DNA of 64,000 nucleotides from Bryoerythrophyllum caledonicum (lineage: Eukaryota; Streptophyta; Bryopsida; Pottiales; Pottiaceae), in the NCBI GenBank assembly GCA_963971425.1, contig OZ020521.1, positions 5,039,519 to 5,103,518 of the forward strand. Direction: 5' to 3'. The position numbers and the translations under genes were made by a program. Positions 1,847 to 63,709 of the stretch are shown here, piece by piece. Below the pieces are notes generated by a model. The model ran no database searches. It was not told the DNA's origin and saw only the letters and a list, made by a program, of their open reading frames with translations. Each line of letters opens with the position of its first letter. The first letter of the stretch is position 1.

Positions 1847-1954
1847 CACTTCGGTCGTTGTCATGGTAGCGATCCGTGGTCGGGAAGCACAGTCCACGAC
1901 TGCAGCAGCCTAGTTATATTTTGGTGTCGAGGAATTGCTTGGATTGCAGTGGCG

Positions 1955-8199: not shown

Positions 8200-8282
<83 letters not shown>

Positions 8283-9799: not shown

Positions 9800-9825
9800 T
9801 GTTCACTCAAAAGACCATTGATCGC

Positions 9826-10639: not shown

Positions 10640-10650
10640 CCCATGATATA

Positions 10651-15608: not shown

Positions 15609-15621
15609 AACCGCACAGGCA
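15609..15621. repeat. Target-site duplication, left copy
   Basis: AACCGCACAGGCA. It matches AACCGCACTGGCA at 20473-20485 with one mismatch and brackets the minus-strand LINE. Confidence 0.8.
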
Positions 15622-15689
15622 GAAGAAGAAGAACGTCGGTCTCCAAAGGAGGCCGGCGTGAATAAAGTGTCTGTTCGTTCCACTACTAA

Positions 15690-16041
15690 GGGGCGTTTCA
15701 CACTAAGCCCAAGGGCCGAACTCCATTGAAGACCAAACTATGCCGAGGGGCCGAGTTTTGGAGTTGTAAAAAATTATTAAAATTATTTTAATGAGAAAAT
15801 GTTCGGCCCCTCGGCAAGAGTTTGGGTTTCTATTCTTGTTGGACCCAAACTCTCCTCGAGGGGCCGAACTATTGGCGCCAAAATTCTCAAAAAGTGTTGC
15901 CATGTAAGCATTTTGGTGCCCTTCGGCCCTTGGCCCTTGGCCCCTAGTGTGAAGGCCCACGGGCCGATTTTCAACTCTAGGCCAATCAAATTGCTAGATT
16001 TGCTCGGCCCCTCGAGCTCGGCCCCTAGTGTGAAACCCCCC
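15690..16041. mobile_element. TAA-flanked MITE inside the LINE tail (352 bp)
   Basis: The ends are GGGGCGTTTCACACTA and, inverted, GGGGGGTTTCACACTA. TAA is duplicated at 15687-15689 and 16042-16044. The interior GGCGCCAAAATTCTC...TGCCATGTA block is shared with 49127-49676. A TAA duplication with GGG ends fits PIF/Harbinger-type non-autonomous elements (inference). It splits the LINE tail between ACTACTAAG and ACCATGCCC. Confidence 0.8.
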
Positions 16042-16322
16042 TAAGACCATGCCCACAGGACAAGGAATTAGTAAGCTGGAACTACTTCCCTATCTCGAGG
16101 GTAGACACTATGAAACAGGTAGCCAAAAGAACCACAAACCATCTAATCGCCCAACTAATCACACACCAAGCAGCTAGCCAATGAACCAATCCAAAAAAGA
16201 AGACGAATGCCAGTCTCTGGAGGAGTTTTGGTCGAACCATCCATAGGTCAAGCAAGCAGTCAGAAACCTCAAAACTAACTAGTCATGATAAATCAAGGCG
16301 GGGGAAGAATTTAAGGGGGGTC

Positions 16323-19300: not shown

Positions 19301-20472
19301 TTTGGATGGGGTGAAGTCGTAGGTTTTGAAGTCCTCATTGTTCATGATGTGTGTGCCGTTGGGTAGAGTAATTTGGGTTAGTTCAAAAATATTTTTTGAG
19401 AGGAGTTTTTGTAGAAGCTTTTGGGAGAGTTGGGCATTGAGTGTGTTGTGGTTTAGTGTTTCTTGGCGCCATAGTATTTCTAGTGATGTAGGGTTGATGA
19501 AGAAGTTTGGGAGCGTACTTTTAAGGTGGACTTTAGCTATGTGTTTTATTAAAAAGAATGTTCGTGTTATTGGTGATCTTATGCAGTCGCTTTTTTTAAT
19601 TCTGGGTATGTATTCGGCGCCACCGTATTGGGCAAGGACATATTGAGTTAATCCATTATATATTTTTCCAAGTCTACCTTTATCGTTTAACGCATTTTGT
19701 AGTTGTTCGCCTATACATCGAAGATATGCGTTTTTGAGGGAGAAAGCTTCAAGTCCAAATAGGTTATGTGGGAGTTGGGTTATTGCGTTTGACATACATT
19801 TTGGTAATCCACATATGGTTTTTTGTATGGCTATTATTTTTTGATCAAGTTTTTTGATAGCTGGCATAGAGTATGGTACACCGTAGAAACTATATGCCAC
19901 ACCTGGACGTATTACGGTGTCAATCATTTTTATTTTTTGTTTCATGGTGGCCGGACATGTTGTTAGTTCTTTGCATTGTTTGATGAGTTTCGTTGTTGTA
20001 GCGTGGATTTGGATTTTCCATTTTAGTGATGGAACAAGATTTGTACCTAAGTATGTGTATGGTTCATTTTGGTGTAGTGTGGGGATCGGTTGATTGCGGT
20101 AATTGATGTTAGAGGCTTGCATTAGGGCTTTGAAAGTGGTAGGGTTCAATTTGGATTTCTTTGGGCATCCGGTAGCGGCACATTTTGGGACACCTACGTC
20201 CATACCGGCCCATTTACAATATCTATCAATTTTATTGAGTTGTATTTGTATATGTTTGATTTTATTAGTTATGACGGCGAGGTCATCTGTGTATGCGGCA
20301 GAGTTTATTGTAACTTGTGATGTGCCAAACGTGTATCCGTTGTTGCCTCGTTCTAGCCATCTAAATAGTGGTTCTAAGAATATAATGAATAGGTATGGGC
20401 TAAGGGTGTCTCCTTGTATGGTTCCTCTTTGTATGGGTATAGGTTTTATTTTACCAAAATGTTCACCAATAT
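16323..20472 (-). pseudogene. LINE ORF2, reverse transcriptase half to RLE-like end
   Basis: Read on the minus strand, this is a nearly continuous polyprotein. 20472-18893 holds reverse transcriptase boxes RGTIQGDTLSPYLF and AAYTDDLA (catalytic YADD changed to YTDD) and the thumb. After one stop the same frame continues at 18565-17669 to the RNase H start YYTDGS. A one-base gain in an A-run near 17700 shifts the frame. 17624-16323 then carries RNase H residues AEL, FTDC and HANIDGNEQVDK, a CPIC-x9-H-x4-C finger (16940-16990), RHN, KPDIL (near 16710), IEFTYC (near 16630) and KIDKY (near 16572). The order CCHC, RHN, KPD, acidic residue, K-x-x-K-Y is the signature of the restriction-like endonuclease of R2/R4/NeSL/Dualen LINEs. 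RNase H removes the RNA strand; the end domain would nick target DNA. Confidence 0.8.
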
Positions 20473-20485
20473 AACCGCACTGGCA
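20473..20485. repeat. Target-site duplication, right copy
   Basis: AACCGCACTGGCA, partner of 15609-15621. Confidence 0.8.
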
Positions 20486-21510: not shown

Positions 21511-22042
21511 TGACTTAAAAGTTGTTGTATAGTCGTTTACCCTCAAGAGGGGGGAGTAGTTCCATACTACTAAAGAAAAGAAAAACTCCGGTCTGTGAAG
21601 GAGACCGGCGTGAATATAGTGTTTGTTCATTCTCTTCACTAAGCATATGGCCACGAGACATAGGCTAGTGTAATAGAACTACTCCCCCCTCTCAAGGGTA
21701 AACACTTTTCTACACTAAGTGCTCCCCTACACTAATTGCCTTAGAAACAACCGGCATGTCATCTCCCCCAAGGGCTTTGTGGGTCCCCATACAAGGAGGC
21801 CTTGGGACCCCACCATAATTGGGTGGACTATGGTCGTAGGTACCATGCCGGCAATAGGACTTGAACTCACAACCACCTCACTGGTGTGCCATGACCCAAA
21901 CCACTACACCAAGGACGTGGTGCCTTCCATACTACTAGATCTATGTCTGGTGGACATTGGTTGAGTGGTGGAACGAACAGACACTTTATTCACTCTGACC
22001 CTCTTAAGTGAGGACCGCAATTCTTGTTGTTGTTGTTGTTGT
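21511..22042 (+). mobile_element. Truncated LINE tail split by a SINE
   Basis: The outer pieces 21511-21572 and 21938-22042 together make one plus-strand copy of the LINE 3' tail: TTTACCCTCAAGAGGGGGG, GTAGTTCCA, then GTGGACATTGG, GGAACGAACAGACAC and a GACC...GAGGACC step. The terminal repeat here is (TTG)6 rather than (TTC)n. The interior is the SINE at 21573-21924. Confidence 0.75.
21573..21924 (-). mobile_element. tRNA-derived SINE with LINE-like 3' tail
   Basis: 352 bp on the minus strand, flanked by the perfect 13-bp duplication TTCCATACTACTA (21560-21572 and 21925-21937). Reading 5' to 3', it starts GGCACCACGTCC. It has an A-box-like TTGGTGTAGTGGTT and a B-box-like GAGTTCAAGTCC, spaced as in RNA polymerase III promoters of tRNAs. 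A unique body follows (CTACGACCATAGTCCACCC...). The last 130 bp or so match the LINE tail (TTTACCCTTGAGAGGGGGG ... GAACAAACACTATATTCACGCCGG ... GAGACCGG?-type step) and end in a T/C-rich run. Such shared tails let the partner LINE's enzyme copy the SINE RNA. A second, less complete copy is at 48888-49126. Confidence 0.85.
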
Positions 22043-24715
22043 TCTATAGTCTACTCTTCTTTAATGTCACATTCTTTTTCTTCAGAATCTTCCATTGCAA
22101 ACACTAAATTTTCCAACTGAGCATCACAAACTAAGTTGTTTGTAACAACAAATTCCAACTCTTTTGTATTCACATTTCAAAAATGGCATCAACAATAAAA
22201 TTTACATATTGCAAATAAAAAGAAGGTTTAGGGAAAAATAAACCATTTTGTTCTTGTAACAAAATACATACTTTGTCTTCTTCTCACTTTACTACCGGAA
22301 GTTCATAAGTATGATTGTTGACCAGGCCTTCTTTAGCCTTTAGAATAAGCCATTAATGTGTTATGATTCATTAATAAATTCAAAGGTTACTCAATGCTAT
22401 TGAAAGTTTGTAAAAAAAATTGAAAAATTCATTCACCTTCATAGTGCATAGTGCAGCATTTCTTTCATAGTATTATAAATTCTTTTGGTTGTGCTTTGAA
22501 AGTAGTGGATCCAAAATTTAGAAAAGGCCAATTCTTTTTTTTTTGTTCTATAAACAGATTCAAATTTGCAGCTACTTCTGGTACTCTTAGATTAGGAGGA
22601 TTGTTAAACAAGCCATAAAAAAGTTACCACTCTTTAATAATTCTTTTATTTGTCATGAACTTGAGATAGATTGATTTTAACTGAGTTTTTGAAGAAAACC
22701 TTTACCAAAAACTTTCCCTCGTTCCGTATACAAATAAGGTGGTGGGCAAAAGATTTGTCTGTACAATGGTACTTCAACTATATTTGGCTTTGACACCACA
22801 ACATATGCCGTTCAAGTTCAAATTGCGGTTGTTGTTCATTGCATCTTCAAAGGTTTCAACCACAACATTTTTGGCATTTACAATAGCATTTTTCTTATAA
22901 GTGCAAATTCCAAGCGTTTTTTTACAAAATTCAACTAACAAAAATTCACATGCAATTTTAGGTGAAACACCCTAAAACCACAATACATTAAAATTCAAAG
23001 TACATACAAATAGGTCTTAGAAGTTTCATAGCATTAAAAAAAACAATACACTTCTTACCTCCGAATGTTGTGACCAAATTTGACAACCTTTTTTTTTTGT
23101 AGAATCTACTAGTTTTGTAGCATCCACACCTACATGACTTTTTTTTATAAAATAAAACATTGTAGCGGTACTAGATCCTCTATTTGTTTTGTATTAACAT
23201 TCCTAAAATCAAAATACAATTTGACATTCATATTCATATTATATCTAGATAGAAACAAAATCCATTTAAAAACTAATGACGTCTCAAATAAGAAATAAAT
23301 TCTGCAAAATTAATAAATAAAAATATAAAATAGGAAATTAATTAATCTTGAGAAACTATATATATAACAAGAAATATATAGAGAAACTACATTCCTCTAT
23401 ATTCCAATGAAAACTTAAATAGATGAAAGTGAAACTATATTTTTTGCCTGATATAAGGGTTGTTCACATTCACGTTCATGCGCCACCCTATTTCTGTGAG
23501 CTCAAAGGATGTCCATGCGTCTGGCACATTGTTCTTGTGCTAGCTGACTACTTTGAGTTTGAATTTGCATGTCCTTGTTGTCACAATGCACCCCCTCTTG
23601 AGCCATGTCTTCAAAAACAATAAATCAGATTTGTCTTATGCACAATGTGCAAGTGAATTTTTTTGCAAGGGCTTTCCCCAAGATTAGCCACTCATAACTC
23701 TTATACCTTTGAAATCCATGCAACAAAGACTTGGAATCGTATTGAGGCAAGGAGTGGAGGGAAAAAGTGACTTTGGCAATGCGAGACATGCCTTTATATA
23801 GGCTACGAAGGCATCTCAAAAGTGAACATGAGTTAGCTTGGGTAAGTTTTTGTATTGTCAAGTCGTTGTGCTTAGCGTGGTAGAAACAAACTTCAATTGT
23901 ATAAATTGGACACAAAATTAAGCAGTGGCCCCTCTCCCACCATGCATCATTTATGGAAGCTTTGGTGCCCCCTGCAGCACTAGGGTCGTAACAAAAAGCG
24001 CCAACAGCTCCACTGCAAGTGATGGCCAAGACTCCAAGGTGTGTCCAATATTTTCCTTGCCTTTGGTGTTCAACAAAATCTTTTCAATCACATCGGTTTT
24101 GTTTGCCATGTTTGCATGTTGTTGGACGATCCCTAAATGGGTTGTTGATGGATCGGCAGTGCTGCATGCACCCGAGAATCAATAGGCCTGGCTGCTCCTA
24201 ACTCCAACATGTGTCATCACAATGAGGCAAGAAGGCCAAGGGGATATCACTGGGTAGGATGACCAGGCATACCTCCTTGTGCATTTATACAAAGGGATGT
24301 TATATGAAGGATGACTATTGAATAGAATTCTACCATTCATCATTAAATTCTTTTGAAACAAAAAGCTTGCAATATAAAGCCACCAAAAGGAACTTCTATG
24401 AGCTCTTGAGTTTGAAAAATGAAATTTGGTATTTTCATTAGAATCATATATTTCAACCAATATTTGAAATTGAAAAAAACAAACATAAAAACTTTACTTC
24501 TAATTTCTCTTATATATATGAATTGGATTTACTTACTTTTTAATTTAGCAAAAAATTAAACTCATTTAAACTATAATTTTATTTTGAAGAAATCCCCTCG
24601 TTTTCTTTTGAATTTTTTTGACAACAAACTTGTTGTACGGATTTGACATGTGCTTGGTTGTAAGGTAGATATTATCCTCAACTAAATCCCGTTGCTTTAT
24701 GCTTCTAAAATCCAA
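22043..24715. other. Intergenic, nothing recognised
   Basis: Long AT-rich stretch. Short frames (23423-23623 +, 23625-24029 -, 23925-24185 +) overlap on opposite strands and match no family I know. A decayed transposon is possible but I cannot name one. Confidence 0.4.
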
Positions 24716-25035
24716 AACCTCCAACAATGAACCACAAGAAAACACGATCTCTCCATGGCTACTTCCATGCACATGTGAAACCCAAAGATGTCACTACAAT
24801 GCCAGATTTAAACCACACATATTATGCATCAAAGGACTACTATATAAAGATCCCACATGGGCCATGAGACCACCTAAATACAAACCTTACTATCCAATTC
24901 ATCAAATTCAAATATTGTAATGACAAATTTTTCCTACAAGCAATCGATTTTCTTTTAATAAACACCAACCACTTATTAATGACATTGTAGCTATTGAATG
25001 GATAGTTGATCCCGTTATTGTCATTGCCGTGTTGT
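24716..25035 (+). pseudogene. Internal LINE fragment (RLE-like region)
   Basis: Encodes NNEPQENTISPWLLPC, then TQRCHYNARFKPHILCIKG, and out of frame FEYCND- and DPVIVIA-like pieces. These align with the CCHC-to-KPD-to-end region of LINE copies 1 and 2. The tail is missing. The catalytic KPD reads KPH. Confidence 0.75.
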
Positions 25036-27934: not shown

Positions 27935-28222
27935 AAAAATACATTCAAAAACTTTAACACCATCGCTATCCAACATGCTATGTCTATCCTCCTACACAAA
28001 CGGAGACTTGAAAACAATCAACCAATGCCTGACCCACATACCTCTTAAACTTATCCAACTTGCCAAGTTTGTTTTCCAAATTACCAATCTTCCCCTTGTC
28101 TTTGTTCCTATAGTGTCTACCCTTCTTTTAGTAAGTGGTACGAGAAGGTGAACTTAGGCTTCGTTTTAGTAAGTGGTACGAATAGACACTCTTTTCACGC
28201 CGACCTCCTTTTCAGAGACCGG

Positions 28223-28253
<31 letters not shown>

Positions 28254-28799
28254 CTTCTTCTTCTTCTTCTTCTTCTTCTTCTTCTTCTTCTTCTTCTTCT
28301 TCTTCTTCTTCTTCTTCTTCTTCTTCTTCTTCTTCTTCTTCTTCTTCTTCTTCTTCTTCTTCTTCTTCTTCTTCTTCTTCTTCTTCTTCTTCTTCTTCTT
28401 CTTCTTCTTCTTCTTCTTCTTCTTCTTCTTCTTCTTCTTCTTCTTCTTCTTCTTCTTCTTCTTCTTCTTCTTCTTCTTCTTCTTCTTCTTCTTCTTCTTC
28501 TTCTTCTTCTTCTTCTTCTTCTTCTTCTTCTTCTTCTTCTTCTTCTTCTTCTTCTTCTTCTTCTTCTTCTTCTTCTTCTTCTTCTTCTTCTTCTTCTTCT
28601 TCTTCTTCTTCTTCTTCTTCTTCTTCTTCTTCTTCTTCTTCTTCTTCTTCTTCTTCTTCTTCTTCTTCTTCTTCTTCTTCTTCTTCTTCTTCTTCTTCTT
28701 CTTCTTCTTCTTCTTCTTCTTCTTCTTCTTCTTCTTCTTCTTCTTCTTCTTCTTCTTCTTCTTCTTCTTCTTCTTCTTCTTCTTCTTCTTCTTCTTCTT

Positions 28800-28830
<31 letters not shown>

Positions 28831-30660: not shown

Positions 30661-30702
30661 TTAACCCTTTAAGGCCGGGAAGACCCATATGTGATCTCTG
30701 GG

Positions 30703-30822
30703 CAGGGGGAAGTAGTTCCATCTTGCTAATCCTTTGTCCAGTGGACATCGTTTTAGTAAGTCGAATGAACAGACACTCTATTCACGTCGGCCTCCTCTGG
30801 ACACCGGTGTTCTGCTTCTTCT
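30703..30822 (+). mobile_element. Truncated LINE tail
   Basis: GGGGGAAGTAGTTCCATCTTG, then CAGTGGACATCG, GAACAGACACTCTATTCACG, CGGCCTCC, ACACCGG and a short TTC run. Flanking TGATCTCTGGG (30692) and TGATCTCCGAGG (30823) look like a slightly decayed target duplication. The insertion lies just inside the TTAA-type end at 30661. Confidence 0.75.
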
Positions 30823-31080
30823 TGATCTCCGAGGGGTTATAATCACACCGTAACATTGAATTGAGGAAACATGCTTTAAAATAGTCTCCACGACAGACGC
30901 GCAACATGTTACGATGATTTTGATGAGACCATTTGGGCACAAATTGGCGGCGGGAGTCGGTGGTGAGCCTCACTTGTGTGAAGTGGGATTGCGACAAAAT
31001 GTACCCCCTCCGTAGATAGATGATTCTTTGTGATCTATTATATTCAGAGATTCTTTCCAAGCTTCGTGAGCTCTCAAGCC

Positions 31081-35864: not shown

Positions 35865-35874
35865 CAGAGATGAA

Positions 35875-36130
35875 GGTAGTGTCATGTGGAAGCCTACATG
35901 CATAGAGTGTTTATTTGTTCCATCACTAAGTCGATGCCCACCAAACAATGAATTAGTAGTATGGAACTACCTCCCCATCTTGAAAGTAGACACGAGAAGA
36001 GAAGTAGATATATGGTATTTAGATAGAGATAGAATGAGACGCTATTTCTATTCATACTAACTTATGACCTATGGGTATAGGCTTAGTAAATGAATGAACA
36101 CACACTCTTTTCATGCTAGACTAGAGTTCA
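35875..36130. mobile_element. Decayed LINE-tail fragments, head to head
   Basis: 35900-35995 is a minus-strand tail (GAGTGTTTATTTGTTCC, CGATGCCCACC, AATTAGTAGTATGGAACTAC, AAAGTAGACAC). 36075-36115 is a plus-strand piece (CTTAGTAAATGAATGAACAC, ACTCTTTTCATGC). Both are diverged. They end about 660 bp before the myosin ATG. Confidence 0.55.
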
Positions 36131-49679: not shown

Positions 49680-51112
49680 GCCAACGCCTATAAAATTGGG
49701 GTATATCCAACCCTCTTCGATCCCATTACCACCAACTCAGTTCCAAATGGAGGTTTGCTATTAGTTAAGATCCTTCTTGAAGATGGAATAGGTTGGTATG
49801 TTGTTACCTTCTATTGATGTGACTTAGAAATGAGGGCTAGGTGAGCTCCGTTTTTTTTGGTGAGGGAGGAGGAAGGGCTTAGCCTCAGAAGTAAGGTTTA
49901 TGGACGACAAGAGTGTCTGGCCTTGTTGAGAGCCTCCATAAGCTGTAGATCTGAGTGCAAAGAGGTTTGGGAAGCATTGATTTTGTGTTGGAAAGTGCTC
50001 GCACACCAGATCTGAGGCTAGTTGACCACAAAACGTGTATGAGGGACGGATTTATGCAAAGTCGGTCTGAGAGCGAGGGTTATGTTTTGGTGCATAGATC
50101 CATACATGCGTGCTATTAGAGGTCTGATCTGACTCACATCTAGTGAGGAAACAATAGACTTGCTACCTCTTACAAGTCTCTCCCTTCTTCCCGACCCAAA
50201 CACTCCACAAGCAAGATTGAGCAAGAGATCAACGCGACATCGGTATTTGGCATCAACTTCCCACCACTTCAAGTTATACTTAACTCATCGCAATGTTTTT
50301 ACATATTATGGATCACTCTTCATAGGCACATCACACATACTAGGCACATCACCTCAACCCACACGTACACTAGGCACAACACCACGGACATTCACCTTGC
50401 CACTAATCTTCTAACCTTTCGGTACAATCATAGGAAGTGTGTATCTGCACGCCGCATGCGGCAGCCTTGGCAAAACTCTTGCAAATCTAAACACCCAACA
50501 CGAGGAGCACACCAAGACGCCAACTTGGAGCCACTCCGCGCGCATCCACAGACGAGTTGTAACACCATCACAACCCCACATATCATCATCAATAGAGACA
50601 AGCGATCTGGAAGCGGCCCCCTAAGGTGACCTGCAGATCAGCAATAACAATATGTTGACAAGCGCGGCAGAAACACGCAGATTCAAGAAGACAACCAAAA
50701 AAAAAGATAGGTACATCCAAAAAGCCCTCAACTCCACTCAACCTTCACAACCCTCCTCTCTCTGCAACACGTCCCTCTCCCTCCTATCCCATCTCTCCCT
50801 CTCAACCATCTTTCTCTCCACCCCTTCCCCCTTTCCCTCCCCCTCCAGCCCTCTCCCCTCCTCGCTCTCTAGGAACCCCCTTTTCCTCACAGCCCCCTCT
50901 TAGTCACGCAAGTAGCGAAACAAGGGAAAAATGAGGAAATTCCAACCCCAGACCATCCCTACGAGACAAACAAGATCAAACGACACTCAAGCCCCCCCTC
51001 CCCACGCGCAGCTATTAGGGATACGCATACTTCCCTCCCCCCTTGCAAAGCTCCCATTCCCGAGGATAGGGACCTACCTGAAGGAACGCCCCCTGCAGCC
51101 TGCAAGAAGAAA
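49680..51112. other. C-rich leader-like region, no gene recognised
   Basis: From about 50150 the plus strand becomes rich in C and poor in G with CCCTCTCC-type runs (50750-50900). It leads into the open frames at 51113 and 51817 and may be the 5' untranslated part of that unit. Confidence 0.4.
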
Positions 51113-51816: not shown

Positions 51817-53518
51817 ATGAATATGACGGATCAAACCCCGACCATACTACACATGGTAGCAATGGACGTCGAAAACCCTACATTCTACACCAAAAAGCCC
51901 TCGATAGAGAATGCCTCCACCTCCTCCAACAAAGACACCCCACACCTTGCTAAGAAGCCTAGAAGTAGTTCTCATGGCATATGCCATGTCTCAGTCCCTG
52001 ATTTCACCACCTTCAAATTCTGGCTAGGCTTCTCTACCATGGAGAAACTAGCAGAGGACGATGGCCAAGAGGTCCTCAATAGTGGAGAAAATGTGAGAGA
52101 TGTGATCACTAGAGGTGTACCCAAAGGAGAAGCGGAAGAGGCATTGAAGGCCACTATAGCTTACCCTAGGATCCCACAGATACTCTACCCCAAGACAAGA
52201 AATGATGATGTTGAAGGACAACACTTCAACATTACTCAAGTCCCCTTCGACATCTCTACTAACCTAAGGACCGATTTGGCATATGACTTCCATGTGGCCA
52301 TATACTTTGAATTACCTAACCATCCTCTATACCATGATGACATTAAAAAACTTGTTAAAGCCATACTTGTACACATGAACATACCATTGGGTACTAACCT
52401 TATTGACCCTCTCGCAATCCTTTGCAAAGGGGTTAAGAATGAGGAACATAAGGGTGTTTTCTCATGGATTATCAAGATCCACTTCCTCCATCGAGAGGTG
52501 GATGCCATATCACTCCTCCGGGGCACCCGAAACTTTGTTTTGCCACTTGATCCCATGGGTCTGCTATCCTTGAGGAAAGTGTGCAAAACTTGGCATGCGG
52601 TGGCTCGTCAGGGCCTCTCGGTCCGCATTAAGAGTGACAACTTGAAGGGAGTCACCGCACGAGTACTCTTTCAAGACGTGGTACAAAACGATTTCGCTAG
52701 AAACCTCGAATTTGAAGTGACGAATATGGAGAAGGAGGTAGCAGAGTCCCATGCTTGGATCATCGCACCCACTCCCAAACAAGCCAAGAAACTGGAGCGC
52801 CACTAAGTCACCACTTTTCAAGAGATCTTCTCCACCAAAGTTAGCAGTTCTCGTGACTTCTCCACCTCCGATAGGGCCAAGAAGGACGCTTTAGCCTTTG
52901 ATACTAATCCTATCACAACTACCCATTCTCATGAGCGTGGATGACACCACGACAACCATCACCCACGCCCTCCAAGCCAAAAACATTGTCACTATATGGT
53001 TCCATAGACAGATAAAAAGCAAGCACAATGGATCCGCCAACATCCAAGTTATCAACCCCATTGTGTATCGACAACACCTCAACAAAACCTTCAACATTGG
53101 GCTTCACCAAGTAGAAGTCCGCCGGCATCGAAGAGGCCTAGATGGAGTTGACTCCCCATCCGCTACATTGGTGGAGAAATGGGAGTTCAATGACATCAAT
53201 ACGGCCTTGGTTAACACGGTGGCATCCATGAAGTCCACCCCCACCTCCACCAACACCTCCACCAACACCCTACAGGCGGAGATGACCGCGATTGTGGATG
53301 AAGGTTGCAAGCAACTTCGAATGGAGCTCTCCTCCTTCAAGGAAGACATTATTCGTGAAATCCAAGAATACACCGTTGTCCGCACGGATGAGGTAAAATC
53401 TAAACTAATCAATGTTGAGAAACTAATGCTGAATGCCCTTTCGGTGATGCAAGGTATCAATGGAAGCGGTTCGGTGCCTTCTCTTCCACCCCCAAATGGC
53501 CCGTCAAATGTGGATTGA
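51817..53518 (+). pseudogene. ORF1/gag-like coding region, broken
   Basis: 329 codons run from 51817 to a TAA at 52804. Similar-quality sequence continues past the stop (VTTFQEIFSTKV) and, after a frame change near 52925, continues at 52930-53518 (MSVDDTTTTITHALQAKN...). Together this is a unit of about 560 codons. There is a hydrophobic and charged middle (VLHMNIPLGTNLIDP-like, GVFSWIIKIHF) and a predicted coiled coil near the end (LRMELSSFKEDIIREIQEYT), followed by a Ser/Pro/Gly tail. No zinc knuckle was seen. It resembles the RNA-binding first ORF of a LINE in position and in having a coiled coil, but I recognise no family. The candidate 5' border of the following LINE at 53952 suggests it belongs to another element. 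Confidence 0.45.
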
Positions 53519-53938
53519 CCACGGACCACCCACGAATGACTCACCAACCACGTTGGCATTGGTTCTCCCTCTCACTAGCTCTACCTCCTCCCCCCTTTAC
53601 CCCTCGTTAATATCTTTTATGCCACCATTATGCTTCATCTCCTAGATCTCTACATAGTTTAACTCCAAGCTATAGCTTTGTTTGTAAGTCCATCCTCAAT
53701 ATATCCATATTCTTGTTCTCTCTCCACTCTCATAGAACACAATAGCTCTACTACACACCTCATCCCTCTCTCACTCACTATCTCCTTCAATTACATTTGT
53801 CACATGTTTGTAGTTAGCCTTGTTAAAATATCACCACACTTTACATGTATTATTCAAACAATCATAGCAATAAATCGTAGACTACATCACTACCTCAACA
53901 CCCCTCCCCACTTATCAATGCCAATGGCATTGGAATAT
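53519..53938. other. Spacer, nothing recognised
   Basis: CT-rich then AT-rich. It ends at CCTTACTCTTTGG (53939-53951), the candidate left target duplication of the LINE. Confidence 0.4.
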
Positions 53939-54245
53939 CCTTACTCTTTGGGGTAACCTCCTCACCAAACACATACCACACACCAAAACACAAACAAAAC
54001 CACACCTACTTAACCAAAAGCACTCACATACAACCACTCCTAGAAAACATTCCCACCACAGTCTACCAACCCATACAAAACCACAACCAACACACAATAC
54101 ACACTCAAAGGGAAGACACACTACAAACACAACAAACCCAAACAAAGACACACACACACTTCCAAACAAACATAACCCCAAAAAACCCCAAAAAATTATT
54201 ATACAAAAAACAAGCATTCTACAACACAACAACAAATCTAAACAC

Positions 54246-54968
54246 ATGAAAATCCTACTACTTCTAGGCGGAGACATAGAAACCAACCCGGGACCAATGC
54301 CTAATATACTAAAAACCCATCCCACATCACATAAGAAAAATGCCAAAATATACTTTATACCAAATACCATAAAACTACAACCGGAATACAAACACATCGC
54401 CCAAACATTTGCACCTCTCTTAAAAACCACACATACACTACATCACTCACATAACAATACACATCCAAATATTGCCCGATATATACAACAACAAAATACA
54501 CACCCACCAACACACATCCTATATGCCCTAATAATTACCACCCATCCAAACATAGACGAATGTATCCATCTCCTAAACCCTCAAAACCCGAATATAATCA
54601 CATGGACAAACACACTACTACAAACCTTATCAAACTTACAAAACCTCCCTGAAAGACATATTCATACCCCGCACCCATATACAAAATTTCTTGAAGAAAA
54701 TCAAAGTATTATAAATCACGGGAACTCAATACATAAAGAATTATACAACTTTCTACATAGCCAAACCACACCACCCTCAAGCACTACAATAAAACAAAAA
54801 TTTCCTTACCTCCCTAACAATCTAATTAACGAAACACAAAAATGTCTTGACCCCATAGTAGAGTATACCCACCCACCCCCTCCCCCTTTTTTCTTCCCCC
54901 ACAAAACCAAAATACTAACACAAACAACAAAAATACAAACATCATTACATGGAATGCATCTTCTCTAA
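54246..54968 (+). pseudogene. LINE polyprotein N-terminus with 2A-like motif
   Basis: Begins MKILLLLGGDIETNPGP (54246-54296). D-I-E-x-N-P-G-P is the consensus of 2A-type sequences, which make the ribosome skip the Gly-Pro bond; the predicted break is between codons 54291-54293 and 54294-54296. The Leu run before it could also act as a short signal-like segment, as proposed for some 2A sequences. The following 220 codons are Thr/His/Asn/Pro-rich with no domain I know. The frame is open upstream to 53874 but without an ATG, which is expected in such G-poor DNA. A frameshift near 54930 leads into the endonuclease. Confidence 0.7.
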
Positions 54969-55860
54969 ACACTGCTCTCCCCAGCTTACAAACTTTGACC
55001 ACATATGCAACAACACCACCGGTCCTCATAGTCATCAAAGAAACAAAAATATCAGCCACAAAATCTACTAAATACATACAAAACATATTCCATGACTATA
55101 AATTTATTTTTAATAACACACATACACTCACAAGATGCATCCAACAACGAAGACCATATACACCGGGCCAAGGTGGCCTCTTTACACTAATACACAAAAA
55201 GTATGCCTTCCCGGGCAACATCACTGAAAAAATCCCTACTCCAATGAACATATCCCCCTACCTCCAAATAATTAGAATTACTAATCAACCACTACAACCA
55301 TGATTAATCTTCCACATGTATATGCCATCCCATCCCGAAGGTACTAGATTTATTAGAGACATACAAAACACCATTACATCCTAAATAAACCAAAATCCTA
55401 ACCATACCTACTTGTTGTGTGGAGACTTCAACAAAGACATAACATTAATTGGTAGACAAAACGGAAATCTTCACACCCCCCTCAAACCATAGATTACCAA
55501 TGGCGCCACTTCACAAAAAACCTAAACCTCACCTATGTAGACACCAATACACAATACTCCAAACAAGGCGGCTATAACTATAATGATTGGAGCCTAATAG
55601 ACGGCTTCTATGTAAACACAAATAATAATACACGATACACTTCCACAACAAACAAAGACATTATTCTCAACTCGGATCACTCGTCCAAACAACTCCACAT
55701 CCCAAATAACATATTAATAAGCCGTATCTCCACAAACACAAATATTAATACTAAACGCATACTTAACTCCATTCCAAAAGATAACTTAGAAAAATTCAAC
55801 ACAAAGTTCTTAGAAGAAAATTCCATACAAATTGACTCTCTTATAAACATACTTGAAAAC
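54938..55860 (+). pseudogene. LINE APE-type endonuclease domain
   Basis: Apurinic-endonuclease fold that nicks target DNA before reverse transcription. Landmarks in order: NIITWNA (54938), VIKETK with the catalytic Glu (55040), GQGGLFTLI (about 55172), LLCGDFN (55421-55432), LIDGFYVN (about 55590) and the catalytic NSDHS (55669-55683). Spacing is as in other LINEs. In-frame stops occur near 55303, 55382 and 55488, and at least one frameshift lies between GDFN and SDH. Confidence 0.8.
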
Positions 55861-55896
55861 AATAACCAACTCTCTCAAACACAATGGCACAAAACA

Positions 55897-56065
55897 TGGG
55901 TATGAACATGATGGTTTTGTGGGTATGGGGTTGTGGTGTGGGTTTTGTGAGGTGGGGTGGGAGGTGGTATTGGATCTGCGGTAGGTATTCATGATCTTGT
56001 TAATGGAGTGTAGGTGGTGAAATAGAGAGTGTTTTCTAAGTTGTAGTTGTGATGTTCAGGTGAAG
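55897..56065. other. Inverted segment inside the LINE
   Basis: About 165 bp in which the plus strand is suddenly G/T-rich and nearly C-free, the mirror of the element around it. Its inverse is again A/C-rich and reads LRKHSLFHHLHSINKIMNTY and onward, as expected for the stretch between endonuclease and reverse transcriptase. The finger region of the polymerase that should follow is missing, so inversion and deletion went together. Confidence 0.7.
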
Positions 56066-56079
56066 ACACCAATACACTT

Positions 56080-58889
56080 ATGAAAATATTATCCTCGAAT
56101 GGCAAATTGTTTAAAATCCTACACAATAGTCAAGAAGGTTTTAGAGCAGAGAGAAGTACCTCTAGACAAATACAAACTATAATAGCGGCACTAGAAGAGG
56201 CAAGATTTACAAATCAAGACATATATGTTTTACATGTTGACTTCAGAAACGCCTTTGGCTCTATAGACCACGCCCGACTATTAGCAATAATGACTGACAT
56301 TGGGTACCCAACAGATGCAACTACACTAGTTGAAAATATATACTCCCAATCATCTACTTACTACACCGGGGAGCACTTTGGTAAAACTAAGCCCATCCCC
56401 ATCCATAGAGGCACTATACAAGGAGACACCCTTAGTCCATACCTATTCATTATATTTTTAGAACCACAACTTAGATGGCTAGAGTGAGGCAACAATGGAT
56501 ATACTTTTGGTACATCACAAATCACCATAAACTTCGCCGCATACGCCGATGACCTTGCTGCTATAAATAACAAAATAAAATCACTACAAACACAAATTGA
56601 TAAAATCGATAGATATTGTAAATGGACTGGTATGGATGTAGACGTTACAAAATGCGATGCTACTGGATGTCCAAATAAATCTAAAATGAACCCAATTACA
56701 TTTAAAGCCCTAATGCAAGCTTCTAACATCAACTACCGTGGTCAACCAATCCCCATACTACATCAAAATGAATCATATGTATACATAGGCACAAATCTTG
56801 TTCCCTCTCTGAAATGGAAAATCCAAACTCACAATACGACCACAAAACTCATTAAACAATGCAAAGAATTAACAACATATCCGGCCACTATGAAACAAAG
56901 AAATTAAAATGGTTGACACCGTAATACGCCCAGGTGTAGCATACAGCTTCTATGTTGTCCCATACTCTATGCCAGCCATTAAAAACTGGACCAAAAGATT
57001 ATAGCCATACAAAAAACCATTTGTGGTATGCCAAAATGCATGTCAAACTCAATAACCCAACTCCCACATAACCTATTTGGACTTGAAGCTTTTTCCTTCA
57101 GAAATGCCTATCTCCGGTGCATAGGGGAACAACTACAAAATGCCCTAAATGACAAAGGTAGGCTCCGAAAAATATATAATTGACTAACTCAATATATTCT
57201 TGCTCAATATGGTGGGGCCGAAAATATACCTAGAATTAAAAAAACGGATTGTATAAGATCACCAATAACTCGTACACTCTTCCTATTGAAACACGTAGCT
57301 AAAGTTCACCTTAAGAGTACACTTCCAAATTTCCTCTTTGACCAAACATCATTAGAAGAAGTATGGCGTCAATAAACACGAAACCATAACACACTCAACG
57401 CCCAACTCTCCCAAAAGCTTTTACAAAAACTCCTTTCAAAAAACATTTTTGAACTAAAACAAATCACTCTACCAAACGGCACACACATCATGAACAATGA
57501 GGACTTCAAAACCTTCCACTTCACCCCATCCAAACTAATCAAGAGTGTCCTACATGTTGCCAAACAAATTTTTTGCCATCCAGCATGGCCAACTACATGT
57601 GATATCGCTTGCAACATACACCCATACTCATACATACTCCAAGACCCATTCATCACCATCAACAACAACATCCTCCCAAGAACTACCCTACCACCAATCC
57701 ATCCTCCCAACCCCTTATACCCACACCACCCCCGGCCCCCAACATACATCACCAAAAACCCCACCACATATCCTATTAATAACATCATACGCCATGAACA
57801 CATACAACATATAGATACCAACAAAATACCTATACAAAATACTTATGCCAATGGCAACACAACAACAATACATTCAATAAATGGCTTCCTCAAAGAAATC
57901 TTTTTCCAAGGCACGACTGTAATACCTCCACATATAACACCAATAAACTAAGACAATATTATCAAAAAATTAAATATAAATTCTACTCGGAAATCATCCA
58001 AGCCCACCACCCCCAAGAACAATTACAAGACTCAAGATCCGTAACTCCACCTGTAATCATCCCACTCCTAAACATCTATACAACGGAATGTAACCCCGAA
58101 AACGATATTATCACAATCTCAAACACAATTAAAATAAAAAACAATCAAGCCCATCTATATGAAGCAAATGGTCGACATTTACACACTACTCCCACTACTA
58201 GACTCCAATGGCTATGGAATCAATACAACATAAAACTACAAACTCCTACAAACATTGAACCAACAACCAAACCATTCGAAACCGAATTAATTTGGCTATA
58301 CCAAAGATATAAATACCGCATTCCAAAAAATAATCCCCTCAAAAATGCACAATACACAATACCCACACTTATTCTAGACTCATTAATTTCATCCTTTAAC
58401 ATCGAACAATCATACTTCTCCTCCCCCGTCACATGCCCCACCAAATTAAAAAAATTCTACTCACCCTTTGAAAGAGATAAAATATTTGGCTCCTTGAAAA
58501 AGGCCTTTGACTATAAATGAGTGGGTAATGGTATAGCTCACCTCCACAATGAGGAGGAAACTCAACAAGTACTACATTGGGCCCGTCTTGCTGCTAAAAA
58601 TGACCCACAACACACATCTACACTCATTATCACTCCAGACAAAAATTGGTACCAAAACTTTAATCCACACTCAAGCCCATTTGCAGACTCCCATATCATT
58701 GCAATATTTGGAGCAGACTCAATTCTATACAAAGAACCTACCATTCCACATGAACTAAAAAAGCCCAGAATTGAACCATCTACATTACAAATAATATACG
58801 TCAACCACCAAAACCAAAACCTTGGCACCCTTGAACAGCTTGCTGAACTCACCTCCATAGCAAAAATTCTTAATATAAATCGGATATAA
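56080..58889 (+). pseudogene. LINE reverse transcriptase and connection region
   Basis: 56080-56907 reads GFRAERSTSRQIQT, VDFRNAFGSIDH (catalytic Asp 56239-56241), RGTIQGDTLSPYLF and AAYADD (YADD at 56542-56553), interrupted by one TGA at 56485. The thumb and linker follow with several shifts (56900 to 57490). Recognisable blocks at 57490-57951 and 58521-58889 align with copy 1. The Trp codon TGG in DYKW of copy 1 is TGA at 58518. The finger motifs are lost in the rearrangement upstream. Confidence 0.8.
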
Positions 58890-59039
58890 ACAAAGATGGC
58901 CCCACCAACACCTATACAAACACCACTCAACAAAAACAAAAATGGTCAAAACTAAATTACAACAACAATACACTAGATTACATATTATCACTCCCACCCC
59001 TCCCGGACTACCAAACTACCACCTCACCAAAATTTGACC

Positions 59040-60525
59040 CCACATATAACTATTATACCGATGGCTCCTTAAAACCACTAGAACAGATTAGTCCGGGTAA
59101 TTGGCATAGAGAAAAAGCCGGCTACGGAATATACAATCCTACAAAAGAAATCAAACTAGCCAAAAGACTACACGCACTACAAAATATCCTCACAGCAGAA
59201 CTCATGGCCATCCACAAAACACTGGAAATTGTCACAACGAAATACAATAATGAACCAGCGCACATATTCACAGACTGCATTAACGCACTATATTTATCAA
59301 ACACCCAAATAACACACCTTACCCTCCACAATAGCCACCCCAACCGAATCATACTAAAATCTATGGTCCAAATGATACTAAAACGAAGACAAATCACAAC
59401 CATACACAAAGTTCGAGCCCACGCTGATATTGATGGTAACGAACAAACCGATAAACTAGCAAAAGAGGGCCGAGAAAAATCATAAAAAAATGCCAAAGAT
59501 CCACACAAACATGCCCACGCCACCCCATACTACTTCCAAAAAGAAGACTGGCCCTCCAAAGAAGACACCCCCGACAAAGGTCCGATTAGATTCTTGAGCA
59601 AATACCTCAAAAAACAAGACCTATATAATAACCTTGACACAATCTGAGATAACTTCCCTGACATAGAAAAATGGACCAACAACAACATAGACAATGAACT
59701 CTCTACAAATTTCTGGAAAAACCCCATCATCACCGACTCACAAATAACATGTGCTATCAAATTCCGTACCGGACAATACATGGGAAACGCCCGAAAACAA
59801 CTCTTCTTTGGAATAGAAAGATTCCCATCCATAACATGCCCAATATGCACGTCCACGGATCCCGACACATGACTACATGTTTTACTTAAATGTCACAATC
59901 ACCACATTCACTCCCTAATTGTCAAAAGACATAACAAAGCCGTATGGGACTCCGTAAACTAATCACCTCCCATAACAAATCGAGATGTTTTATCCTCATG
60001 AATGTTGGCATCTTTAACAACCCACAAGAAAACACAGTCCCACCATAGCTACTCCGATGTATATGTGAAACCCAACGATGTCAGTGCAATGCTCGACTCA
60101 AACCGGACATACTATGCGTTAGAGGCCTACCATACAATGACCCCCCACCCGACCACATCAACCAAAACAATACCATTCAATTCATCGAATTCACATATTG
60201 TAATGATAGATTTTCTCCAGAAACAATCGAAAACAAAATCAATAAATACCAACCCCTTATAGAGGACATTATTGCCCTCGGATGGAAAGTGGACCCCCTT
60301 ATGGTAATCACGGCCGGCGCCCGCGCCACCACCTTTATCCCATCTATAAAAACCCTAGAAGACACCTTCAAAATTCCCATTAATACAATTACAAACACTT
60401 TCAAGAATATTAACATCATTGCCATACAACACGCTATGTCCATCCTTCTGCATAAACGCAAAATTGAAAACAACCAAGCCCTCCCCGATACACAAGACCC
60501 CCTTGAAAACTACCTTTTTACTTGA
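59040..60525 (+). pseudogene. LINE RNase H, CCHC finger and RLE-like domain
   Basis: RNase H: YYTDGS (Asp 59060), AEL (Glu 59198), FTDC (Asp 59273), RAHADIDGNEQTDK (His 59420, Asp 59450), a full set of catalytic residues. Then a CPIC-x9-H-x4-C finger (59837-59895), RHN (about 59928), KPDILC (60100), LIEFTYCNDRF-like (FIEF at 60181, Glu 60187) and NKY (60245). This is the order seen in restriction-like endonucleases of R2/R4/NeSL/Dualen LINEs, although the gap from PD to the acidic residue (26 residues) is longer than in R2. Stops: TGA near 59648, TGA 59870, TAG 60046, plus shifts. The final frame 60289-60525 is intact. Confidence 0.75.
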
Positions 60526-60821
60526 AATTAATCTGTGATATTGCGAAACACTCCCTCTTCTCCATCTGTCCCTCCCCTTCTTCTTTTTCTCCTCTCCCTC
60601 TCTCCTCCCCCCTCCTACATCCTTCCTTGTTACTCTTGTGGTTGATGGGTTATGTGGTTTTTGGCTACTTGTTACATAGTGTCTACCCTCAAAAGGGGGA
60701 AGTAGTTCCAGCTTACTAATTCCCTGTCCAGTGGGCATGGTCTTCGTAGTGGAACGAACAGACACTTTATTCATGCCGGCCTCCTTCGGAGACCGACGTT
60801 CCTCTTCTTCTTCTTCAAGAC
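60526..60821 (+). mobile_element. LINE 3' untranslated region and (TTC)n tail
   Basis: A CT-rich stretch (CTCTCCCTCTCTCCTCCCC), then the family tail: TTTTTGGCTACTTGTTACAT, GTCTACCCTCAAAAGGGGG, AAGTAGTTCCAGCTTACTAA, GGAACGAACAGACACTTTAT, CGGCCTCCTTCGGAGACCG and (CTT)5. CTCCTTCGGAG is a small perfect hairpin that persists as complementary changes in other copies (CTCCAAAGGAG, CTCCTTCACAG), a plausible recognition stem. Confidence 0.8.
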
Positions 60822-60833
60822 CCTTACCTTTGG

Positions 60834-62090
60834 TCGTCGGTCATGGCCCACCAAACATGGCTGCACAGTTTGAAAATTCATAACTAATTCAATTTTCATT
60901 GGAAAAATATGAAATCACTTGGGTTGGAATTATAACTCTATTGGCTATCACTAAAAAGTAATAGTATAATTATCTCCTCTCCATATATGCACATTCCTTA
61001 CCTTGTCGGTGTTAGGGAGCTTACCTTATATTCACGTCAGTCTCCTCCAGGAACCAGAGCTCCTCTTCTTCTGGAGCACCCTCCACATTGCTCCTAAAGG
61101 TGGGACTGGATTCCCGGCCCCTAAAAGCAGAAGGAGCGAAGCATGTTGCCGGCCCTACCCGCTCGCGCTGCGGAAGCAGCTGCAACGTCTCCAACACGTC
61201 CTGATTTCCAGCTCGCAAGGGCACGCACCTCCCGCAACAACACGAGTCATGTCTCTCGTGCACCATCATTCACCTTCCCTTCAAACAAAACAAAACAATA
61301 ATTGCATCTCACCAGATGTGCACGGAAACCTCGCCTCTGGTCGGTGTTGCAACTTCACTCCCCTCCTCTACAAAAACACATATCTTACCATGCCGTCTTT
61401 TCCCACGTCTCGACTCCCATTCTTTTCACTATCTCACGCCTCTGCTTTCTCGTTGAAATCCCTCTCTTCAGCTAGTTTTGTTTGTTTTTCTAACGACCAC
61501 ATTCACCTCATGCAGAAGCTGACATTCACCTTCAAACAACCACTCTGATCAGTCCAGTCTTGTTCCCCAAGCTGAGGTTTATCCTCTTCTTCTTGTTGTG
61601 GATATATCAGCACACTCCAGCCTCATTTGGAAGTTGACGCTCTACTTTTAGATACAAGGTACTGGAAAAACTGACCAAACTCCTCACTTTTAGGCGGTTA
61701 TCACCACATTTTTTTTTTTCCCTTGGGAGCGAATTCGGAGATTTTTGAGGTGAGGCGTTGTTGGAGGAGCTTGAAACTGAGAGAAGTTGAGTTGAGGGCG
61801 TTCGTTTCTAGTCTAGTGGGAAAGTGTGGAGAAAGATCAGATACTTTCTCTGCTTCAGAGTTTCACACTTGCACGTGTTTTCCTTCGGAGTTTTCCAGAC
61901 GACACGGATGTGCACAGAATGTTCACGTCTCTTTCGAAGCTTCACGAGAAGATGATTAGTTTGACTCCTTCTATGGAATCCATTTTTATGTGCGATTTCT
62001 GCAGATGTTGTAGAATGGAACTCTAAGAGGAGGCGGTTATGGTTTAGGGCGTGGGTTTTTTTTTTGGTGGGTTTCGGAGCGGTCGTCGCG
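60834..62090. other. Upstream region of the PILS gene
   Basis: A degenerate LINE-tail piece lies near 61010-61080 (TATTCACGTCAGTCTCCTCC ... TCTTCTTCTGG). A 181-codon frame at 61003-61548 runs through it and matches no family, so it is not called. From about 61720 the DNA looks like a transcribed leader with several short upstream ATGs. Confidence 0.45.
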
Positions 62091-63709
62091 ATGAGGCTGC
62101 TATCGGAGCAGGGAGTGGAGATGGCGGTGCGGTTGGGCGGCGAGATCCGCTACATGGTGGAGCTGTCCGTGGTGCCCGTGATGAAGGTGCTGACGATGTG
62201 CGCGCTGGGGACGCTGCTGGCGCAGAAGCGCATCGGCGTGATCACGCCGGCGGCCACGCGCCTGCTCAGCAAGCTGGTGTTCGCGCTGTTCCTGCCGTGC
62301 CTCATCTTCACGGAGCTCGGCGAGTCCATGACGTTCCACAACATGCTCAAGTGGTGGTTCATCCCCGTGAACGTGCTGCTCAGCTACTTCATCGGGTGCA
62401 TCGCGGGCGTGTTCGTCGCGCTCGTCTGCAAGCCGCCCCCGCAGTTCTTCCGCTTCACGGTCGTAATGACCGGTATCGGAAACGCGGGCAACCTGCCACT
62501 CGCCATCATTGGATCGCTCTGCCATGGCCAGTCCCATCCCTTCGGCAAAAAGTAAGATCATACTCAAACTTGTCTTTGCTACTCATATTATTGAATAATG
62601 TAGCCCTACTTTTTTTGAATCTTGGACCATTTTTTTAATCTTGGACACTGCTCGTACGCAGGACGCCTTAGGGTTTGCTGAAAATCTCATGGAAAATCTG
62701 ATGTTATTGATGGCATGACATAGGTGCAATCAATCGGGAGTGGCGTATGTAGCGTTTTCGCAATGGATCGCCGTCCTGGTGATCTACACGTTCGTGTACC
62801 ACATGCTGGAGCCGCCCGAGGAGTACTACGAGCTGGTCTCAGAAGACGGAGAAGACGCGTCGGTGAAGGGTGGCACGGCGGCGCTGGCCGCGCTGGAGGC
62901 CGAGGCCATGCCGTCCGTGACCAGCGCCGAGTGGCCGGACGTCAGGGACGCCACCACGGAGGATTCGCGCATGCCGCTGCTGGCGCGCGTGTTCCGCTAC
63001 CCTTCGTTGACGTCGCTGCCATCCGGAGGTGAGGAGAGCACATTTCTGTCAATGGAGAATCTGGGTGGCCATAGCTTACTGATATTGACATACTCCGTCT
63101 CATGTTGCAGTTGACGGAGATAGTCCGCGAGCGAGCGTGCGCTGCCTTGCGGAGCCGCGGGTGATGCGCAAGATGCGCGTGGTAGCGGAGAAGACGCCGA
63201 TTCGGTACCTGATGCAGCCGCCGATCATCGCGTCGCTGCTCGCCGTGGCCGTGGGCGTGTTCCCCGACACGCGCGCGCTTCTGTTCGGGGACGACGCGCC
63301 GCTGGGGTGGTTCACCGACAGCCTGACGATCCTGGGCGCTGCGCTGGTCCCGTGCGTCATGCTGGTGCTCGGCGGCACCCTCTCAGTGGGACCAGGGAGC
63401 TCCGAGCTCGGGCTACGAACCACGATCGGGATCACATTCACGCGCTTGGTGCTCCTCCCCCCCATCGGCATCGGAGTCGTACTGCTCGCGCACAAACTCG
63501 GCGTGCTCCCGCCCGGCGACAAGATGTTCATGTTCGTGCTCCTGCTGCAGCACACCATGCCCACTGCCATCCTCTCCGGCGCCATGACCAGCATGCGAGG
63601 CTATGGCGAGCGCGAAGCCTCCGCGCTCCTCTTCTGGCAACACATCTCTGCCGTCGTCACCATCGCCGCTTACATCGTCATCTACCTCAAGATCATCAGC
63701 CACTTCTAA
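62091..63709 (+). CDS. PIN-LIKES (PILS) auxin carrier, PILS2/6-like
   Basis: Auxin carrier-fold membrane protein; PILS proteins sit in the endoplasmic reticulum and lower nuclear auxin signalling. Three exons, 62091-62551, 62724-63028 and 63111-63709, join in frame to 454 residues, a normal length. The N-terminal half has about five membrane segments, starting with ELSVVPVMKVLTMCALGTLL (24-43), then KLVFALFLPCLIF, WWFIPVNVLLSYFIGCIAG and the signature GIGNAGNLPLAIIGSLC (128-144). The segment HPFGKKCNQSGVAYVAFSQW with YTFVYHMLEPPEEYYE is typical of the PILS2/6 group. A hydrophilic loop spans about 183-285. The C-terminal half (about 289-454) has five more segments, including LVPCVMLVLGGTL and LLLQHTMPTAILSGAM, and ends YLKIISHF. 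The ATG at 62091 was chosen; an ATG at 62121 is an alternative. The last 291 bp of the window are its 3' flank. Confidence 0.92.

Follow-up and report, generated by a model that had tools for sequence, protein, structure and literature searches.

A 64,000-nt stretch of the genome of the moss Bryoerythrophyllum caledonicum (assembly GCA_963971425.1, contig OZ020521.1, positions 5,039,519 to 5,103,518 of the forward strand; hereafter the window) carries copies of a giant long interspersed nuclear element (LINE). These copies very probably belong to a recently active family of the dual-endonuclease kind, i.e. LINEs combining an apurinic-type endonuclease (APE) with a restriction-like endonuclease (RLE), whose polyprotein also includes a 2A-like peptide and a PCIF1-like domain lacking the NPPF motif. 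Both main window copies are decayed, and intact relatives are present elsewhere in the same genome. Full-length copies measure about 12.6 kb and have a (CTT)n-type 3' tail, a first open reading frame (ORF1) encoding 546 aa and one ORF2 frame, about 2800–3100 codons in length. The architecture of the family, the intactness of its members, their recent movement, their target duplications and the purifying selection acting on them are observed in the genome itself. The most surprising parts are the 2A peptide and the PCIF1 relative, which go beyond the original prediction, made from the letters of the window, of a LINE with two different endonucleases.

Intact copies and their probable dual-endonuclease polyprotein

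A search of the genome (437,360,962 bases, 894 contigs) with the C-terminal protein sequence gave 10,310 loose candidates; among the 91 scored matches, 90 have no internal stop and 14 fall within open frames of exactly 2809 aa. Six copies were retrieved whole, including one that is 5'-truncated (C7), one from another subfamily (C8) and four that are full-length (12,608–12,626 bp). As these four differ pairwise by 7–10 substitutions, i.e. at only 0.06–0.08% of sites, the family has moved recently. ORF1 (546 aa) and the 2809-aa frame are intact in all four, and this frame encodes, in order, the 2A-like peptide, the APE, the reverse transcriptase (RT), a chromo-like patch, the PCIF1-related domain, the RNase H, and a zinc knuckle followed by RLE motifs. 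In the intact 2769-aa ORF2 translation, Pfam recognizes the RT (PF00078, 6.7e-26), the PCIF1-related domain (PF12237, 7.1e-10) and the RNase H (PF00075, 1.5e-11). A second subfamily (L086) displays the same domain order in a 3087-codon frame, and a 3087-aa frame was found for 33 of the 150 scored genome matches to the PF12237 profile (2614 candidates), which matched nothing in 14 control genomes. ORF1 and the ORF2 frame share 124 nt, read in different phases (intact-copy nt 3908–4031, L009/L015), and the first ATG of the ORF2 frame comes some 155 nt past the ORF1 stop; ORF2 may start by frameshift or re-initiation.

The claim that a single element carries an APE, an RLE-type endonuclease and an RNase H is borne out, all three being found in one intact ORF of the same genome. 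The RT lies in this ORF too, so that nested or broken copies cannot account for the combination. Chance origin is ruled out too: five database proteins (P0082, P0025, P0053, P0002 and P0005) align collinearly with the copies at 30–72% identity, and the ratio of non-synonymous to synonymous substitution (dN/dS) between the two main window copies, copy 1 and copy 2, is 0.08 for both the RT and the C-terminus. The domains listed from the window alone (APE, RT, RNase H and RLE-type end) are all retained, and the 2A-like peptide and the PCIF1-like domain had been overlooked.

The 2A-like peptide reads GDIETNPGP in copy 2, the intact C1 copy, L086 and L088, and thus conforms to the 2A core (D/G/C/N)(V/I)ExNPGP; the relative P0082 carries, ahead of its APE, the variant GDIQPNPGP, which falls outside this core. 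Two 2A-like peptides occur in tandem in L088 (frame from 552), and the C8 copy (L013/L019) has an extra degenerate 2A (NPRP) and a long polyglutamine run before the canonical one. Judged on its sequence, this peptide is a naturally occurring candidate, encoded by a plant genome, for translational skipping, of which a survey from 2026 reports no evidence in plant viruses (PMC12846837).

The joined APE piece of the window matches Exo_endo_phos_2 (PF14529, 8.3e-6) with a score of 26.1, just below the cut-off of 27.4. The intact ORF2 aligns in one continuous stretch with P0082 (45% identity, ORF2 residues 456–1468), P0040 (71%), P0069 (64%) and P0080 (52%), whose own APEs are above the Pfam cut-off. 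Since it combines the APE motifs with these continuous alignments, the intact ORF2 is assigned an APE, an identity that we regard as firm at the sequence level. Relatives with an RT and an above-threshold APE comprise P0088 in addition to these four; the APE is below the cut-off in P0053 and P0025, and no APE family is seen in P0061, P0063, P0058 and P0057. In a test restricted to eight relatives, three passed the cut-off, P0025 was below and four showed none.

The C-terminus displays C-x2-C-x(8-9)-H-x4-C, RHNK, (K/R)PD and E in a fixed order. Five proteins combine RNase H and RLE motifs (P0002, P0005, P0020, P0021 and P0091) and, down to P0091 with 25% identity, the positions C95, H108, C113, R125–K128, P186, D187 and E214 are invariant, the second Cys of the knuckle being lost in P0021. 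The order of the PD, E and K motifs is that of R2-type elements. The original prediction called for comparison of this C-terminus with RLE families; a profile searched against 177,635 PDB sequences (E up to 10) gave two matches only, 8gh6 and 8ibw, both in the zinc-knuckle/RHNK region (E 0.33) and both of which we take to be Bombyx R2, and no Pfam family came near its cut-off. An R2 chain also aligned with P0091 at the same zinc-knuckle place, with 6 bits, which is not significant. Motif order, selection and the weak R2 match support the identification of the C-terminus as a putative RLE, whose fold would be of the PD-(D/E)xK type.

Selection was estimated by the Nei–Gojobori method. Between copy 1 and copy 2, dN/dS is 0.078 for the RT, 0.227 for the tail behind it, 0.111 for the chromo-like patch, 0.172 for the PCIF1-like domain, 0.191 for the linker, 0.118 for the RNase H and 0.079 for the C-terminus. 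Between the intact copy and the C8 subfamily, it is 0.124 for the post-2A part, 0.106 for the APE, 0.191 for the APE–RT linker, 0.021 for the RT, 0.127 for the tail, 0.057 for the chromo-like patch, 0.253 for the PCIF1-like domain (based on 17 synonymous and 16 non-synonymous differences), 0.065 for the RNase H and 0.078 for the C-terminus. With dN/dS below 0.26 across all stretches measured, all of them, both nucleases included, look to be kept by purifying selection.

The PCIF1-related domain, insertion junctions and a possible mechanism

PF12237 is above its curated cut-off in copy 1 and in the intact ORF2. A database search with the region between RT and RNase H retrieved 19 proteins, of which precomputed annotation assigns PF12237 to 18 and both PF12237 and RNase H to nine. 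In the alignment with 6irx, presumably zebrafish PCIF1, the LINE sequences SFFSSPVTC, FGSLG and AHPHN face ECFASPLNC, FGSRG and ANPPF, respectively. NPPF is described as the motif of PCIF1 (PMC8868631). In a 22-row alignment, this position reads AHP in 19 and AYP in two of the 21 covering rows, one row being gapped, and none keeps NPP or the Asn; genome frames read AHPH or AYPH in nine of 12 cases, the other three being fragments where neither was seen. Copy 2 reads AHLHN and, since the intact copies read AHPHN, the loss of NPPF is not due to decay. Because NPPF is replaced in all 21 rows, the domain is probably a dead enzyme retained for RNA or cap binding. No description of a PCIF1 domain in a retrotransposon was found among the literature matches listed (titles and abstract openings, with subscription literature thinly covered).

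Several results weigh against this picture of the polyprotein. With E up to 0.1, Pfam detects no APE family in the 2769-aa translation of the intact ORF2, no Pfam family comes near its cut-off for the C-terminus, and the best PDB match of the latter (E 0.33) is weak and confined to the zinc-knuckle/RHNK part. The match to solved PCIF1 is also weak (6irx, E 0.026; profile E 0.21). In an AlphaFold2 (AF2) model of the copy 1 region, the mean confidence (pLDDT) is 61 and falls below 50 in the PCIF1-like core (residues 217–260); the model is good only over the chromo-like part and the stretch behind it, so that it does not settle a PCIF1-like fold. The chromo-like patch itself is under the Pfam Chromo cut-off (E 0.11 and 0.083), with no Chromo match listed for four segments; its identity as a chromodomain, hinted at by the AF2 model and the sequence pattern, is not claimed in view of this lack of Pfam support.

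Insertion junctions were examined at 24 loci, 15 of which show an A-type 5' end: ATCGAGATGAACACTG, or this sequence lacking at most three bases. Target duplications of 10–13 bp flank 13 of the 15 copies, with a longer one where the target is a TA repeat; no duplication was seen at C7b, and a 7-nt match at C11 was rejected. The nine other loci (C201 and eight more) are devoid of the A-type end, and C1c, among the eight, has a 13-bp duplication and a different 5' end. All 13 duplicated A-type copies, closely related among themselves (L015, L016, L018, L020, L021, L023, L025, L029, L031, L037, L039, L061 and L075) carry a filler between the duplication and the element. The fillers are all different and measure 1, 6, 8, 11, 15, 15, 17, 17, 18, 20, 21, 22 and 22 nt (nine of them thus 15–22 nt); every one starts with A or G, and eight end with G. 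The lone-G filler of one copy is what a copied cap would give. One 22-nt filler, the only one of the 13 that was mapped, proved unique in an exact-match genome search, which fits untemplated or patchwork end-joining better than capture of another RNA's 5' end. Read-through from donor flanks is unlikely, since it should have given near-identical copies the same leaders and the mapped filler is unique; copying from the element was also rejected, the longest match being 9 nt among the ten fillers of at least 11 nt. Among 11 copies of other subfamilies, five (C4, C6c, C6d, C11b and C11c) display a duplication and an unlike stretch before a GAGCTCC core, C7c and C8 a duplication with no core in the stretch inspected, and C9, C7d, C8c and C10c no clear duplication. 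The 3' tail is non-A, of (CTT)n type and once (TTG)n. A test for a conserved 3' RNA hairpin found two-sided changes in only two of 18 predicted pairs, and single folds were unremarkable in three of four cases, one fold being from an incomplete segment.

These data suggest a possible mechanism, in which all enzymatic activities, and the part that each endonuclease plays, are inferred. The 2A peptide would split a low-complexity leader off the polymerase protein during translation. The APE would nick the first target strand, the RT would copy the element RNA starting at its conserved 3' end and the RNase H would strip the RNA from the hybrid, while the zinc knuckle and the RLE would bind the target and make, or help to make, the second-strand cut, leaving the target duplications. 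The PCIF1-related domain would most likely bind RNA, perhaps at the capped 5' terminus of the transcript that the element itself produces. It can also be imagined, as a very improbable extension, that this dead domain is a cap-binding module tying RNA 5' ends to reverse transcription, each insertion capturing the short 5' end of another RNA ahead of the element in an analogue of cap-leader capture.

Copies inside the window

The motifs reported for the window element (NIITWNA-type, KETK, GDFN, SDH, YADD, RNase H and C-terminal motifs) were all recovered. On the forward strand of copy 2, ITWNA, KETK and GDFN lie within 54851–55456, SLIDGFYV and SDH in the frame starting at 55456, YADD within 56488–56907 and the RNase H at 58874–59485. 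The end block is indeed nearly unbroken in copy 1, as a single stop-free frame of 464 aa (16323–17717). A start at 53952 had been proposed for copy 2; the intact copy aligns to the window at 49827–50879, 51938–53547, 53973–55898 and 56068–60805, and copy 2 therefore includes the 5' untranslated region (UTR) and ORF1 and begins near 49827. The segment missing from copy 2 corresponds to intact-copy nt 6913–7879, and the skew is opposite at 55900–56199. No target duplication was found in the flanks of copy 2 that were inspected.

Features of the LINE copies in the window (positions within the 64,000-nt window)
Feature	Position	Strand	Evidence or remark
Copy 2, 5' UTR	49827–50879	+	intact-copy nt 2–1139, 58% identity, E 4e-17
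Copy 2, decayed ORF1	51938–53547	+	intact-copy nt 2477–4060, 64.9% identity; frame pieces 51817–52806, 52898–53518
Copy 2, 2A-like (StopGo) peptide HMKILLLLGGDIETNPGP	54243–54296	+	also in intact C1 copy, L086, L088
Copy 2, APE-type endonuclease	54899–55893	+	tblastn with P0082, 42% and 36% identity; frameshifted, two in-frame stops in first part
Copy 2, break	55899–56067		about 170 bp of other sequence; about 0.97 kb of APE–RT linker and RT N-terminus gone
Copy 2, RT and tail	56068–57474	+	PF00078 2.4e-15 on 56053–56484; 64% identity to P0025
Copy 2, tail, chromo-like patch, PCIF1-like domain	57651–58940	+	51% identity to P0002 residues 243–685
Copy 2, RNase H and start of C-terminal domain	58901–59950	+	58% identity to P0002
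Copy 2, RLE-type C-terminus	59950–60495	+	61% identity to P0005 residues 1104–1286
Copy 2, conserved 3' end with (CTT)n tail	60742–60816	+	same 3' end recurs elsewhere in window
Copy 1, 5'-truncated at about 20475	16041–20475	-	intact-copy nt 8172–12548; 90.9% and 89.1% identity
Copy 1, chromo-like patch	18896–19069	-	AF2 model strands and helix, pLDDT about 84–91 at model residues 1–50; Pfam Chromo E 0.11
Copy 1, PCIF1-like domain	18185–18589	-	PF12237 (PCIF1_WW) E 5e-13, above cut-off
Copy 1, RNase H	17355–17714	-	PF00075 2.6e-11
Copy 1, zinc knuckle and RLE motifs CPIC, HVLLKC (H-x4-C), RHNK, KPDI, IEFTYC, KIDKY	16569–16988	-	motif positions, conservation, R2 match
Copy 1, probable 3' copy of target duplication, GCCTGTGCGGTT	15609–15620	-	one mismatch to 5' copy
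Copy 1, probable 5' copy of target duplication, GCCAGTGCGGTT	20473–20484	-	12-nt near-repeat flanking copy 1
Third, fragmentary copy (C-terminus)	24675–25024	+	intact-copy match; further piece 27935–28056

Copy 1 is split by an insert of about 350 bp, beyond which its last 64 nt are found at 15627–15690. This insert (15691–16040) is bounded by inverted repeats similar to GGGG(C)GTTTCACACTA, shows a short duplication of TTAG-like sequence and looks like a miniature inverted-repeat transposable element. Additional short 3' ends from LINEs of this type occur at 21579–21706, 21925–22037, 30686–30823 and 35866–36007, one of them with a (TTG)n tail and not a (CTT)n one. At 28224–28829, 202 unbroken CTT units directly follow a LINE 3' end, as though the tail had seeded a microsatellite. 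The window also harbours an RT fragment of another LINE (12500–13215, about 23–35% identity to the dual-endonuclease family), an ORF with a VCPO_2nd (vanadium chloroperoxidase-type) Pfam match (1949–3370, 5.5e-7) and, at 61965–62552, an exon-like ORF matching PF03547 (Membrane transport protein, 1.8e-32), of the land-plant PIN-LIKES type by our own reading.

Alternative origins and comparison with known elements

The RT was compared in several ways. A database search gave 75 rows, with second-tier relatives 29–42% identical in the RT. Against solved structures, the RT of P0053 best matches R2 proteins (2.7e-32), followed by 8c8j (RNA-directed DNA polymerase, 4.8e-16), which we take to be L1. 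In a tree with 68 unnamed relatives, copy 2 groups with P0029, P0040, P0023, P0024 and P0038, with weak fork support (85/25). None of 43 pattern matches to relatives in viral contigs was confirmed.

The family could simply belong to the Dualen/RandI clade, in a host from which that clade was not yet recorded, a reading that we consider slightly more probable than its negation and in which described Dualens may bear a PCIF1-like domain that went unnoticed. Indeed, the published Dualen has the same set of an APE and an RLE with an RNase H (PMC4640811), and RandI has non-A 3' repeats (PMC3747384). In one EukProt source, P0093 has an APE-like domain and an RT by our own motif reading, and P0091 has RT–RNase H–RLE and, in the expected position, a weak PCIF1-like stretch, whose hhalign score of 26.3 exceeds those of 120 shuffles (maximum 19.7) and 25 natural segments (maximum 18.8). 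However, the hhalign probability of this stretch is only 7%, plain hmmsearch does not list P0091 at E up to 1, and the RT comparison set contained no Dualen reference sequence. The extra domains (2A and PCIF1-like) and the moderate RT identity to second-tier relatives would rather suit a separate clade that assembled both endonucleases independently; this seems rather unlikely, as the order APE–RT–RNase H–RLE is also that of Dualen and independent gain is less simple.

Two further readings concern the domain and the host. A live methyltransferase, with AHPHN replacing NPPF and marking the element's own cap or RNA, would agree with the purifying selection and with the nearly invariant, PCIF1-like (F)SSP-TC and FGS-G motifs adjoining; it is nevertheless improbable given the absence of Asn or NPP from all covering rows at the position of PCIF1's own motif (PMC8868631) and a dN/dS that is the third highest of seven stretches between copies 1 and 2 and the highest of nine between the intact copy and C8. 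Contamination of the assembly by an alga or a protist might be considered since green algae and cryptophytes are known hosts of Dualens (PMC4438587, PMC12747079), but we hold it to be extremely improbable: matches are spread over C1–C4, C6–C12, C14 and C15, contigs of about 20–65 Mb where a length is given, and the transporter ORF of the window lies about 1.15 kb from copy 2.

A recently active dual-endonuclease family thus very probably resides in a land plant. Dual-endonuclease LINEs being recorded, in the literature consulted, from algae and cryptophytes, a high-copy, near-identical and intact land-plant family offers a system for testing the role of each nuclease. Furthermore, a cap-methyltransferase relative that is selected without NPPF in a LINE polyprotein points to a cap- or RNA-recognition step, and we know of no LINE model that includes a step of that kind. 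From the RT position of dual-endonuclease LINEs, an origin of APE-type LINEs through replacement of the RLE has been argued (PMC4640811).

From sequence features, the closest known kind appears to be Dualen/RandI: the family probably works like Dualen, and membership is not claimed, the RT comparison being without named Dualens. As in Dualen/RandI, the APE is N-terminal and the RLE C-terminal to the RT in the same protein, with an RNase H and a non-A 3' repeat. Relative to published descriptions of these elements, the family adds a 2A peptide, a chromo-like patch, a PCIF1-like domain and a land-plant host. Dualen/RandI were given in 2015 as restricted to green algae (PMC4438587), and were reported in cryptophytes in 2025 (PMC12747079).

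With R2 and RLE-only LINEs, the family shares the closest solved RT, the C-C-H-C knuckle and RHN. R2 and other RLE-only LINEs are devoid of APE and RNase H and insert mostly site-specifically, whereas this family has both domains and its copies occupy unlike target sites. The target specificity of RLE-only LINEs has been discussed in the literature (PMC4640811).

Like land-plant L1 and RTE, the family encodes an APE, an RT and, as they often do, an RNase H; unlike plant L1, it has RLE motifs and no poly(A) 3' end. The 3' end of L1 is (A)n and that of RTE (GTT)n, and to our knowledge no land-plant L1 or RTE carries an RLE. A 2022 review lists L1 and RTE alone as land-plant LINEs (PMC9033089).

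The likeness to PCIF1/CAPAM, the cap N6,2'-O-dimethyladenosine (m6Am) methyltransferase, consists of PF12237 above its cut-off and a weak alignment over the stretch that ends in NPPF; the LINE domain differs by AHPHN at this place and by being embedded in a polyprotein. Finally, a GDIE-x-NPGP-type peptide in the polymerase ORF is shared with the 2A-bearing non-LTR retrotransposons of trypanosomes and animals, which have been described for APE-type elements (PMC4981915).

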